The notes under the pieces: generated by a model
What the model saw: the letters and a program-made list of their open reading frames with translations, nothing else
Databases searched by the model: none
What the model was told of the DNA's origin: nothing
Position numbers and translations under genes: made by a program
From: an uncultured SAR86 cluster bacterium
GTDB taxonomy: Bacteria; Pseudomonadota; Gammaproteobacteria; Magnimaribacterales; D2472
Assembly: GCA_902556355.1 (NCBI GenBank)
Contig: CACDVW010000012.1
Coordinates: forward strand, 1-36,784
Reading direction: 5' to 3'
Length of the DNA stretch: 36,784 bases
In this document: positions 28,261-36,594 of the stretch, piece after piece
Layout: each line of letters starts with the position of its first letter
Position numbering within the stretch: the first letter of the stretch is position 1

Positions 28261-30441
28261 CTAAAAGTTGCCTGCAACTGAGGACATAGCAAAATTAAGT
28301 TTTTCTTTTCTATCGTCCCCTGAAGGCGCAACATTTAGCTTTTCTCCACTTTGTGCAAGTTTTATTAGTAATTCACTAGGTTTGTATGCATCATTTCCAG
28401 TAATTTCATGATATTTCTTTAATTTATCAACAACAACGTCTAAGCCCATAGCATTGGCATGATGCATTGGCCCACCTCTCCATATTGGAAAACCATAACC
28501 ATTAATATAAACAACATCTATATCCGCTGCTCTCTGGGCTACACCCTCTGACAATATATCAGCTCCTTCATTAATAAGAGCTAAGATACACCTGTCAGTA
28601 ATTTCTTCATCTGAAATTTCTCTTCTTGTAAAACCATTCTCTGAAGAAATCTTTTCATAGACTTCTTCGTTTTCTGGAGCAGGGTTAGGAGCTCTTGAGC
28701 CTTCACTATAGTTGTAATAACCTTTGCCGTTTTTTTGACCAAATCTATCGTTATCACATAAATAATCTCCAATCTTTGCATGAAGTGGGGATTCAACACC
28801 GCTAAGCTTTCTTGCTCTCCAGCCAAGATCAAGACCAACTAAATCCATCATTCTAAATGGGCCCATATTTAATCCAAATGATTCTATAGCTTGATCAATT
28901 TGATGGGGAAGGGCACCCTCAAGAAGAAGCATATTAGCCTGTGCTGTGTAATTAAAAAGCATCCTATTGCCAATAAAACCTGGTGCATTAAGAGATACTA
29001 CCGCAGCTTTTTTTATCTTCTTACTAACTGTCATTACACTAGCTAGTGTTTCGTGAGATGTCTTTTCTCCACGAACTACTTCTAACAATCTCATGATATT
29101 AGCTGGACTAAAGAAGTGAGTACCTACTACCTTATCAGGCCTTTTAGTTACTGATGCTATTGCATCTACATCTAATCCAGATGTGTTACTTGCAAGTATT
29201 GCATTTTCATTAGTATGCTCATCAAGATTTTTAAAGATTTCTAATTTTAAATCTAGATTTTCATATACAGCCTCGATTGCAATATCGACATCATGTAAAT
29301 CTTTATATTCAAGGCTTGATGATATTAGTCCAAAAACCATATCTTTTTGCTCGGGCGTCATTCGGCCCTTGCCAACCATAAAGTCATAATTTTTTTCTAT
29401 TACAGAAAGACCTCTTTTCAAATTTTCTTCATCTTGATCAATTATATGGACTGGAATTCCTGCATTAGCAAAACACATAGCAATACCTCCACCCATAGTT
29501 CCTGATCCAATGATTCCAGCTTTTTTAATATCCATTGAAGGGGTGTCGGCAGGAACATCTGAAATTTTTGATGCAGCTCGCTCTCCAAAGAATATATGAA
29601 TCATTGCTTCTCTTTGCGGGTGCATTAGGCACTCAACAAATAACTCTCCTTCTTTTTTTAAGCCTTCATCAAAATCATCAAGATTTATAGCAGCCTCAAC
29701 ACATTTAATGATTTGACCAGGGGCAAATTGGCCCTTTCTTGCCTTAGCTGCCAAAGCTTGCGCCTCAACTAAAACATTTTCTGATCCTCTTGCTTCGATC
29801 ATTTTTTCATTAAGATCACGAACTTTAGGGTGGTTAGAGCCTTCTTTTGCCTTTTCTTTAGCAAATTGAATAGAATCTTCTACAACATTATCAGACAGTG
29901 AGTCTACAATTCCCATATCTAAAGCTTTTTTGGCAGGTATATGTGCTCCTGTAAGCATCATTTTAAGCGCTTCTGAAGGGCCAGCCAACCTAGGAAGTCT
30001 CTGTGTTCCACCTCCACCAGGTAAAAGGCCTAAATTTACCTCAGGTAGACCAACAAATGCTTGTTTAGAGGCTATTCTGTAGTTACAACAAAGCGCAGTT
30101 TCAAGTCCACCACCAAGAGTTATACCATTAATAGCAGCTACCAAAGGCTTGGAACAATACTCCATGCTTTTAAATACGTCATTTAAGCTATGTCCGCTCA
30201 TATTTCCACCAAATTCAGAAATATCTGCTCCAGCTATAAATGCTCTTCCTTTACCTGTAACAACTACACCAACAACATCATTATCAGCCTCTGCTTTAGC
30301 AATGCCTTCAAAAAGACCATTCCTAACACCCTCACTCAGAGGATTCACAGGGGGGTTATCTACAGTTAAAAGCGCAACGCTATCAACAATTTCATAGTGG
30401 ACTGTTCCTTTCAATTTATACTCCGTAAATAAATTAGACAT
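28261..30441 (-). CDS. Bifunctional enoyl-CoA hydratase/3-hydroxyacyl-CoA dehydrogenase
   Basis: A 726-residue fused beta-oxidation enzyme. The N-terminal crotonase domain (residues 1 to about 190) has NPPVNPLSEGVRNGL, the oxyanion segment AFIAGADISEFGG and LLPGGGGTQRLPRLAG. The second half has the NAD-binding GSGTMGGGIAMCFANAG, then NTSGLDVDAIA, THFFSPANIMRLLEVV and NAPGFIGNRM. The GGGGTQR form resembles the peroxisomal/EHHADH-like family more than E. coli FadB, and no fadA thiolase gene is adjacent. A TATAAT on the minus strand (30444-30449) lies only 3 bases before the ATG. Confidence 0.93.
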   Translation of the reverse strand: MSNLFTEYKLKGTVHYEIVDSVALLTVDNPPVNPLSEGVRNGLFEGIAKAEADNDVVGVVVTGKGRAFIAGADISEFGGNMSGHSLNDVFKSMEYCSKPLVAAINGITLGGGLETALCCNYRIASKQAFVGLPEVNLGLLPGGGGTQRLPRLAGPSEALKMMLTGAHIPAKKALDMGIVDSLSDNVVEDSIQFAKEKAKEGSNHPKVRDLNEKMIEARGSENVLVEAQALAAKARKGQFAPGQIIKCVEAAINLDDFDEGLKKEGELFVECLMHPQREAMIHIFFGERAASKISDVPADTPSMDIKKAGIIGSGTMGGGIAMCFANAGIPVHIIDQDEENLKRGLSVIEKNYDFMVGKGRMTPEQKDMVFGLISSSLEYKDLHDVDIAIEAVYENLDLKLEIFKNLDEHTNENAILASNTSGLDVDAIASVTKRPDKVVGTHFFSPANIMRLLEVVRGEKTSHETLASVMTVSKKIKKAAVVSLNAPGFIGNRMLFNYTAQANMLLLEGALPHQIDQAIESFGLNMGPFRMMDLVGLDLGWRARKLSGVESPLHAKIGDYLCDNDRFGQKNGKGYYNYSEGSRAPNPAPENEEVYEKISSENGFTRREISDEEITDRCILALINEGADILSEGVAQRAADIDVVYINGYGFPIWRGGPMHHANAMGLDVVVDKLKKYHEITGNDAYKPSELLIKLAQSGEKLNVAPSGDDRKEKLNFAMSSVAGNF

Positions 30442-30479
30442 GCATTATACATAAAAAATAAGCATATTTATCCTTATAA

Positions 30480-30498
30480 AATCGCACATTTAGCGATT
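30480..30498. repeat. Short palindromic element, candidate operator
   Basis: AATCGC (30480-30485) and GCGATT (30493-30498) form an inverted repeat with a 7-base AT-rich centre, between the divergent acyl-CoA gene and the small-RNA promoter. The size and symmetry fit a dimeric repressor site, for example of a GntR/FadR-like regulator, but no regulator is identified and a single copy is weak evidence. Confidence 0.35.
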
Positions 30499-30533
30499 AT
30501 TTGGAGTAATTTAAATTTATTTTATAAAAAGTA

Positions 30534-30561
30534 TTGATAATATAATATAAATATATATAAT
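30534..30561 (+). promoter_or_regulatory. Sigma70-type promoter of the small structured RNA
   Basis: TTGATA (30534-30539), a 16-base spacer and a perfect TATAAT (30556-30561). The predicted start, about 7 bases beyond the -10 box, falls at 30568, exactly the first base of the TGTCAGCA stem of the downstream RNA. The surrounding sequence is very AT-rich, so alternative -10 boxes (30541-30546) exist; the coincidence with the RNA 5' end supports this one. Confidence 0.6.
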
Positions 30562-30567
30562 AATGCA

Positions 30568-30642
30568 TGTCAGCACTCCTCTCCCCCTATTAGATTTGCT
30601 GACACTCTGGAATCATATGGAGGGCTCAGTCCCTCCATTTTT
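30568..30642 (+). ncRNA. Candidate novel small RNA or attenuator leader (about 75 nt)
   Basis: The segment folds into two perfect hairpins. Stem 1 pairs TGTCAGCA (30568-30575) with TGCTGACA (30597-30604) around a 21-base pyrimidine-rich loop beginning CTCCTCTCCCCC. Stem 2 is the terminator (30617-30638). The predicted promoter starts transcription at the first base of stem 1, so the unit promoter-hairpin-linker-terminator is complete in 110 bases. The local GC is far above the flanks. The C-rich loop can pair with Shine-Dalgarno-like GGAG sequences, as in C-loop small RNAs. Alternatively it is an attenuated leader for the small membrane ORF and glutathione peroxidase gene behind it. I do not recognise it as a known family. 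Confidence 0.6.
30617..30642 (+). terminator. Rho-independent terminator
   Basis: ATGGAGGG (30617-30624), a six-base loop, and CCCTCCAT (30631-30638) form a perfect 8-bp GC-rich stem followed by five Ts (30638-30642). It lies upstream of the ORF at 30659, so it either ends the small RNA or attenuates read-through to that ORF and the peroxidase gene. Confidence 0.75.
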
Positions 30643-30658
30643 AATTAAGAATTATAAA

Positions 30659-30745
30659 ATGAGTAAATATAAAGAATTTTTTGAAACTGTAATTTTAGTA
30701 AGTGTTTTTGTGATCTCTGTTCTTGCAATAGGCCCAATAGCTTAA
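30659..30745 (+). CDS. Hypothetical 28-residue single-span membrane peptide
   Basis: Directly after the terminator an ATG opens a 28-codon frame: a charged N-terminus (MSKYKEFFE) followed by one hydrophobic span (TVILVSVFVISVLAIGPIA). The frame is also open upstream to an ATG at 30563, but that longer version would run through both RNA hairpins and is unlikely. The ribosome site is poor (AAGAAT). The peroxidase start is 27 bases downstream. I do not recognise the peptide. It could be a real small membrane protein or chance coding in AT-rich DNA. Confidence 0.4.
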   Translation: MSKYKEFFETVILVSVFVISVLAIGPIA

Positions 30746-30772
30746 TCGCCATTAAATATATATAATTTTTTA

Positions 30773-31300
30773 ATGAAAAAAATCTTGTTCAGCTTTTTTT
30801 GTTTTTTCGTTGTTCAAAATATTCATGCCTGTCCGAATCTTCTTAATTCTGATATGCGAATACTAGATTCTGCAGAATCACAAAATTTATGTGCATATGA
30901 AGGCAAGACATTGCTAGTGGTTAACGTCGCCAGCAGATGTGGTTATACCTATCAATATTCCGGTCTTCAAAATCTTTATGAAAAATATAAAGATAATGAC
31001 TTTGTAGTTTTGGGTGTTCCATCAAGAGATTTCTTTCAAGAATATTCCAAAGAAAGTGCTGTGGCTGAGTTTTGTTCCACTGAATACGGCGTTGAATTTC
31101 CTATGTTCGCAACAGTAAAAGTAAGAGGGAAGAAGGCGCACCCTTTTTATAAAAAATTAAAAGAGGAATCTGGTGTTGAGCCAACATGGAATTTTAATAA
31201 GTATTTAATTTCAAAAGAGGGAAGAGTTGTTTCAACATTTAAATCTGGCGTGAAGCCAGATTCTCTTGAGTTAATTTCTGCAATCGAAGAAATACTTTAA
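30773..31300 (+). CDS. Exported glutathione peroxidase-family protein
   Basis: A 175-residue thiol peroxidase with an N-terminal signal peptide (about residues 1-19, ending NIHA). The peroxidatic cysteine is Cys56 in NVASRCGYT; the QYSGLQNLYEKY, EFCSTEYGVEFPMF and WNFNKYLI segments are typical of the family. The usual CNQFxxQEPG segment is replaced by PSRDFFQEY, so the conserved Gln is missing at its normal place. Most bacterial homologues are cytosolic; export suggests a role against periplasmic peroxides. It converges on rpiA with 2 bases between stop codons. Confidence 0.88.
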   Translation: MKKILFSFFCFFVVQNIHACPNLLNSDMRILDSAESQNLCAYEGKTLLVVNVASRCGYTYQYSGLQNLYEKYKDNDFVVLGVPSRDFFQEYSKESAVAEFCSTEYGVEFPMFATVKVRGKKAHPFYKKLKEESGVEPTWNFNKYLISKEGRVVSTFKSGVKPDSLELISAIEEIL

Positions 31301-36400: not shown

Positions 36401-36419
36401 AAATTGCGCCGAGGCTAAC

Positions 36420-36588
36420 AAACCAAATCACCGCCATGTGTTTTACCTGAACCGAAAGGTCAGGTGGTGAATTTCTTATCAAATCAGGCTTCCCTATATA
36501 GGTATTGCACAACAATGATAGTGGAATATCACCTATTTAATAGTATCGGTTCAAATTTAATAACACATTAGCGAATGAACCAGAATGT
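36420..36588 (-). ncRNA. ssrS: 6S RNA
   Basis: The spacer between zapA and ygfA is the standard place of 6S RNA, which binds sigma70 RNA polymerase holoenzyme in stationary phase. On the minus strand the ends pair into a long closing stem: TCA-(T)-TCGCT-(A)-ATGTGT (36563-36578) with ACACAT-GGCGG-TGA (36428-36441). An internal hairpin pairs ACCTGACC with GGTTCAGGT (36445-36465), preceded by TTCACC as in E. coli, and an apical ATAGGT/ACCTAT helix lies within the long arm. The 5' part has GAACCGATA, matching E. coli GAGCCGATA. Ends are approximate. Confidence 0.85.
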
Positions 36589-36594
36589 AAAGAA

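Follow-up and report, generated by a model that had tools for sequence, protein, structure and literature searches.

Positions 30534–30642 of the window (the whole stretch of 36,784 nucleotides analysed, which is contig 12 of a 1.07-Mb SAR86 genome rated 75% complete) are, judged from sequence, one copy of a conserved SAR86 RNA gene without Rfam family. The explanation that we favour, with a probability of roughly 0.6, is that this unit encodes a trans-acting small RNA (sRNA) of ~75 nt that blocks Shine–Dalgarno sites independently of Hfq, and that a leaky terminator also feeds a microprotein and a glutathione peroxidase (Gpx). In this proposal, one promoter type would drive the sRNA, its second (once third) copy, and a pseudoazurin operon. 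Hairpin 1 would offer a single-stranded C-rich loop able to pair in the cell with G-rich ribosome-binding sites and to block translation with no requirement for Hfq. In the gpx-linked copy, leakage through the terminator would allow the same promoter to supply the membrane microprotein and Gpx, and the inducing signal would presumably be of a redox or metal kind. SAR86 bacteria are among the most abundant bacteria of the surface ocean, and a conserved multi-copy RNA with few promoter partners offers a starting point for studying regulation in this order of streamlined Gammaproteobacteria, in which no Hfq was detected.

All parts of the unit lie on the + strand. The promoter block (30522..30561) comprises TTATAAA (30522–30528), TTGATA (30534–30539), a conserved TATAA in the spacer, and TATAAT (30556–30561), with 16 nt between TTGATA and TATAAT by direct reading. 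This block was defined from a logo of 77 distinct promoters, in which A/T-rich blocks lie ~10–12 bp apart, from −11 to the −10 hexamer, and it also precedes a second copy of the RNA and the pseudoazurin operon. From the promoter position, the transcript would start at 30568, where the 5' arm of hairpin 1 begins. This arm, TGTCAGCA (30568..30575), pairs at 8/8 positions with the 3' arm TGCTGACA (30597..30604), enclosing a C-rich loop of 21 nt (30576..30596) that begins with CTCCTCTCCCCC, contains the core CTCCTCTCCCCCTAT, is nearly invariant among copies, and is the presumed pairing site. The linker CTCTGGAATCAT (30605..30616) leads to an intrinsic terminator, ATGGAGGG-CTCAGT-CCCTCCAT (stem-loop 30617–30638; whole 30617..30642), with an 8-bp stem, a 6-nt loop, and a T tract. 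An ORF for a single-span membrane microprotein of 28 aa (30659..30745) starts 16 nt past the T tract and is followed by gpx (30773..31300), which encodes a glutathione peroxidase family protein (PF00255, E 4e-27).

Thus, the promoter, hairpin, loop, and terminator described in the sequence-only reading are all in place, apart from the five Ts given for the terminator, a number reached only by counting the last paired T, since the unpaired Ts are four (30639–30642). The contrast that it had pointed out between the unit and its AT-rich flanks is equally real, with a GC content, in stretches of 40 nt, of 42–50% over the unit vs 5% at 30520–30559 and 10% at 30640–30679. Likewise, the absence of a recognised family was borne out by Rfam 15, which left the unit unmatched when the window was searched at the gathering threshold and gave only five sub-threshold chance matches in a loose search of 30400–30800. 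The only Rfam match of the window is a 6S RNA (RF00013, 60.7 bits) at 36416–36589 on the − strand. The unit's promoter is the best of the list for a 3-kb region (11/12 matches), which holds 8 promoter-like sites vs 11.0 in shuffles and 1 terminator-like site vs 1.6, and the fold z-score of the unit is −2.6, with 6/200 shuffles equally good. As such parts are no commoner than in shuffled DNA, a single copy proves little and the proof has to come from relatives.

A DNA search of 61 genomes recovered the unit from 34, its own genome included. A covariance model built from 40 copies and run on 203 genomes of the order (E ≤ 0.01) matched 115 of them, namely 95 of 107 in the family of the window (f1), 16 in f4, 4 in f3, and no genome of f2 among the matches listed, the absence from f2 and f3 being that seen by this model, which a diverged relative there may have escaped. 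The four f3 matches, when read, were ordinary terminators without the loop, as was a third covariance match in the own genome. The f4 matches were weak, and the 11 places read out of 16 all carried a variant on the same plan, in which stem and terminator are changed (GTCAGT-CTCTCCTCTCCCCC-...CTGAC or CTGGC, followed by a GGGGC...GCCCC hairpin). The sequence-only reading had staked itself beforehand on the conservation of stems and loop in relatives, which is what the f1 genomes and the covariation described below display. Moreover, an exact-pattern scan of 84,980 species genomes yielded 71 loci, 68 of which are confirmed by a promoter, a terminator, or the microprotein ORF, although the scan cannot measure the conservation of the loop because the pattern required it. 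TTGATW lies upstream in 65 of these 68 loci and a terminator is visible in 65, the remaining three being cut by the locus edge, and their record titles name SAR86, marine gammaproteobacterial metagenome-assembled genomes, and one vague Proteobacteria record. The other three loci (L114, L119, and L134), outside SAR86, and the sole match on a viral contig (L175) have neither promoter nor unit and were set aside as chance; viral contigs scanned with gpx likewise gave no relative.

Among 40 distinct sequences, 13 of the 16 pairs changed on both sides (7/8 in hairpin 1 and 6/8 in the terminator) and pairing was kept in 93.6% of the alignment cells, a figure lowered by two visibly misaligned rows (L022 and L028) in an alignment that mixes paralogues and close relatives. 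The observed covariation score was reached by none of 500 shuffles, and shifting the partners by 1–3 columns abolished the signal. The loop is predicted to be unpaired (mean 0.83, and 1.0 for CCCCCUAU), and its core CUCUCCCCCUA varies little while stems and terminators vary. It is not fully invariant: CUCCUCCCCCUAU occurs in one genus, the 5' edge varies in others, one gpx-linked copy (L103) reads TTCTTACCCCTAT / UUCUUACCCCUAU, and a third type of copy carries CUCCUCUCCCUAU. The unit thus presents an accessible C-rich loop on a stable stem, with its own promoter and terminator, as Shine–Dalgarno-targeting sRNAs do.

Of the 37 f1 genomes in the DNA search, at least 14 contain two or more copies that were read; the copies are designated A (gpx-linked), B (exonuclease-side), and C (alternative-oxidase-side). 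Copy B ends against an opposite-strand exonuclease I-type gene (PF08411) in three genera (L002, L022, and L045), and no plausible downstream gene on the own strand was seen in the 13 copies B read. In the own genome, the pseudoazurin gene lies upstream of copy B, the two being separated by an opposite-strand tRNA-Val, and little of the common promoter is left in two copies B (L100 and L101). Copy C was seen in a single genome, arranged divergently with an alternative oxidase gene (PF01786), and is followed only by a remnant of 11–13 codons resembling the start of the microprotein, so that the RNA would have outlived the ORF there. The fact that second copies are mostly free-standing beside the exonuclease gene argues for a trans-acting RNA.

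The promoter motif appears to be nearly private to these RNAs and the pseudoazurin operon. Within the own genome, allowing ≤2 mismatches, it was found at sRNA A, sRNA B, the pseudoazurin operon, and one poor site, against one match of the reversed control. In 18 further genomes, at ≤1 mismatch, there were 36 matches vs 1 in the control, of which 24 belong to sRNA genes and 10 to the pseudoazurin operon (6 of them read and 4 assigned through its first small ORF). The other 2 are single-mismatch sites without clear role, one of them being located, by eye, at the start of a Rieske-like ORF. Pseudoazurin was identified above cut-off by TIGR02375, and in one genome (G021) an alternative oxidase (PF01786, E 8e-74) is encoded behind it. 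In this operon (L222 and L230; also L002 and L207), the same promoter motif is followed, ahead of pseudoazurin, by a pair of conserved membrane ORFs of small size (~60 and 51 aa), neither of which had a family above cut-off.

The nature of these partners brings to mind a specific version of the favoured explanation, in which the sRNA would be a Fur- or iron-controlled iron-sparing RNA analogous to RyhB, FsrA, or IsrR. Fur was found in 57 of 61 genomes, and pseudoazurin, the alternative oxidase, and a thiol-type peroxidase could replace heme-iron proteins. Moreover, the promoter contains ATAAT-nn-ATTAT halves reminiscent of Fur boxes. However, these halves are spaced by 2 nt and not by 1, the dyad is not strictly kept, and the canonical Fur-box matches (42 vs 23 in the control, per strand) had, among those inspected, no clear tie to the sRNA promoter or to iron genes. 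Nitric oxide, copper, or oxygen as the signal would be compatible with the same genes, and we hold iron control to be doubtful as the specific signal.

The gpx-linked copies have a second peculiarity, as an ORF of 27–35 aa starts 5–23 nt past the terminator in all 65 readable loci and a gpx motif follows within 1.1 kb downstream in 50 of 68. For the microprotein, a comparison of the 40 loci of exactly 28 codons (37 distinct sequences, 666 pairs) gave a mean pN/pS of 0.37, which shows that the ORF is translated and under purifying selection; searches of Pfam and NCBIfam gave no match for it. There is no room for a second promoter before this ORF, which implies read-through or the processing of a longer transcript. 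This arrangement would also be explained if the RNA were a mere leader of the microprotein–gpx operon, i.e., a cis-acting attenuator in which hairpin 1, linker, and terminator set the read-through in response to a ligand, a protein, or a ribosome, an alternative that the sequence-only reading had itself raised. In the 65 readable loci, the gpx-linked copies indeed lie upstream of the gene that would be controlled and within one transcript, as an attenuator should, and a linker of the CTCTGGAA type is common in the f1 leader copies and missing from copies B. Nevertheless, not all copies are leaders, since copies B end against a gene of the opposite strand, and the leaders of f4 have no linker. 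When the 3' arm of the terminator is kept from pairing, the best alternative structure of the three sequences folded loses 7.6 to 11.1 kcal/mol in stability and leaves hairpin 1 and loop unchanged, and the keeping of an unpaired C-rich loop across families would be left unexplained. The attenuator stays alive for the gpx-linked copy, where the ORF begins right past the terminator, and leaves the free-standing copies B without explanation; as an account of the whole RNA, we judge it unlikely. That the RNA mainly binds a protein or sponges another RNA, instead of covering ribosome-binding sites, would fit a short, structured, multi-copy RNA with GGA in the linker and terminator stem of the leader copies, but the linker GGA is missing in copies B and the conserved single-stranded part is C-rich, and we regard this as very improbable.

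A trans-acting sRNA in these bacteria would presumably operate without the usual helper protein. The Hfq profile (PF17209) matched none of the 61 genomes of the SAR86 order, including 31 of high quality, although a much diverged Hfq could escape this profile; in the control, 5 of 14 genomes matched, E. coli among them. Missing Hfq is unusual for Gammaproteobacteria, in which RyhB and PrrF are Hfq-requiring small RNAs tied to respiratory and metal metabolism. The SAR86 RNA is unlike RyhB and PrrF in that it has no Rfam match and that the Hfq required by RyhB-type sRNAs was found in 0 of 61 genomes of its hosts. The CcsR RNAs of Rhodobacter, like the SAR86 RNA, carry a C-rich loop motif.

By analogy, the sRNA most likely works like IsrR, FsrA, or RoxS. 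For the C-rich-loop RNAs of low-GC Gram-positive bacteria, it is reported that G-rich stretches seldom occur outside Shine–Dalgarno sites and that Hfq is not always needed (PMC9410917; PMC4409812). IsrR from Staphylococcus aureus shares with the SAR86 RNA its C-rich loops, an AT-rich genome, Hfq independence, and pairing with Shine–Dalgarno sites, the last two being predictions in SAR86 (PMC9410917). However, IsrR is reported as an RNA of 174 nt with three C-rich regions and demonstrated Fur boxes in a Firmicute (PMC9410917), whereas the SAR86 RNA has one loop and ~75 nt, is multi-copy, and acts as the leader of a microprotein operon. RoxS/RsaE (PMC4409812) and FsrA (PMC9410917) are similar in having C-rich regions able to pair with Shine–Dalgarno sites and a redox or iron setting, which is presumed for SAR86, and they differ in phylum, structures, and promoters (ResDE and Fur, respectively). 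According to the authors of the IsrR paper, the C-rich Shine–Dalgarno-targeting RNAs have no homology among them (PMC9410917). In the CcaF1–CcsR1-4 system of Rhodobacter sphaeroides, one promoter also yields a small protein and small stem-loop RNAs, but the account given has the protein first and tandem RNAs after it, release by RNase E, and an RpoH promoter (PMC10253847), unlike SAR86, where the RNA comes first with its own terminator and the copies are dispersed. The main text of a Red Sea metatranscriptome start-site study has no mention of SAR86 (PMC5069720), and the titles and abstract beginnings of papers on SAR86 with small RNAs, or on SAR86 with TonB and Hfq, disclosed neither such an RNA nor other work on regulatory RNAs of SAR86.

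Regarding targets, the sequence-only reading of a regulatory RNA stands as far as a short RNA gene is concerned, its C-rich loop being conserved, and falls short in the targets that it named, metK and fba. The GGAGAG before metK and the GGGAGA before fba are present, and their pairing with the loop (−10.5 and −12.1 kcal/mol) ranks third and first, respectively, among the 45 ORFs of the window. In relatives, the longer match drifts and what persists is a GGAG core (16 of 20 metK and 18 of 19 fba leaders), so that both behave as ordinary strong ribosome-binding sites and are not convincing as special targets. Across 399 genes, made up of those in the window and a 36% sample of the genome, the share of start codons with a strong loop partner is 12.5%, vs 10.1% with shuffled loops; as 9 of 60 shuffles do as well, the excess is not significant. 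A CsgG-family protein, a TonB-dependent receptor, an aldehyde dehydrogenase, and an AMP-binding enzyme are among the strongest partners. The long complement AGGGGGAGAGG (≤1 mismatch, six genomes) occurred 26 times vs 26 for the reversed pattern, with 9 of the 26 being sRNA genes. Exact ATAGGGGGA occurred 24 times vs 18 in the control, with 9 of the 24 again being sRNA genes; of its 15 non-sRNA sites, 5 directly precede a start codon, and Plug-domain receptors account for 3 of these 5.

The G-run sites of TonB-dependent receptors are best described as the leading candidate targets. TonB-dependent transporters are reported to dominate the SAR86 transporter pool (PMC11582366) and would form a meaningful target class. 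Twelve genomes gave 183 Plug matches, of which the receptor survey covered 160; 7 without usable start were dropped, leaving 153, some of which are orthologues of each other and so not independent. Among genes with a clear ribosome-binding site, to which the comparison is confined, runs of ≥4 Gs precede 39 of 68 f1 receptors (five genomes) vs 20 of 126 other genes (p = 4e-9), a background drawn from the own genome only, with start-codon rules that are similar but not identical in both sets and a few starts that look wrong. Within the own genome alone, the test is weaker, with 5/9 receptors vs 20/126 genes (p = 0.011). G-runs also precede 15 of 32 receptors in f2 plus f3, where no sRNA was found, and 11 of 26 in f4. 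Their equal frequency in f2 and f3 indicates an old habit of SAR86 receptors rather than a mark of the sRNA. Ribosome-binding sites with ≥4 Gs are unusually common before TonB receptors in all four SAR86 families sampled (L311–L470).

It may be the dinucleotide before the G-run, and not the G-run itself, that differs between families. In a post hoc comparison, one of five motifs tried, UAGGGG, which matches CCCCUA of the loop, marked 17 of the 68 f1 receptors vs 1 of the 32 in f2 plus f3 (p = 0.01) and 4 of the 126 other genes (p = 7e-6); in f4, the count was 4 of 26. Among sites with a G-run, UAGGGG was found in 17 of 39 for f1 vs 5 of 35 for f2, f3, and background together (p = 0.01; p = 0.09 against the background alone). 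A broader and more tentative proposal, which we would regard as possible rather than probable, is that SAR86, without Hfq, uses a multi-copy C-rich-loop RNA as a brake on TonB receptors, that one promoter code couples this brake to a set for alternative electron transfer and defence against peroxide (pseudoazurin, alternative oxidase, and Gpx) and to the read-through microprotein, and that the receptor sites of f1 are tuned to the loop through UAGGGG. A cultured SAR86 isolate is now described (PMC11582366), so that expression and targets can be tested.

The loop letters CTCCCCCTATA also recur elsewhere in the own genome (contig C20, around 8355; L310 ~1450–1560, − strand), in another hairpin that, together with a strong terminator, is found 26 nt past the stop of an ORF that resembles, by eye, an ammonium transporter; this is perhaps a second, 3'-UTR type of C-rich RNA.
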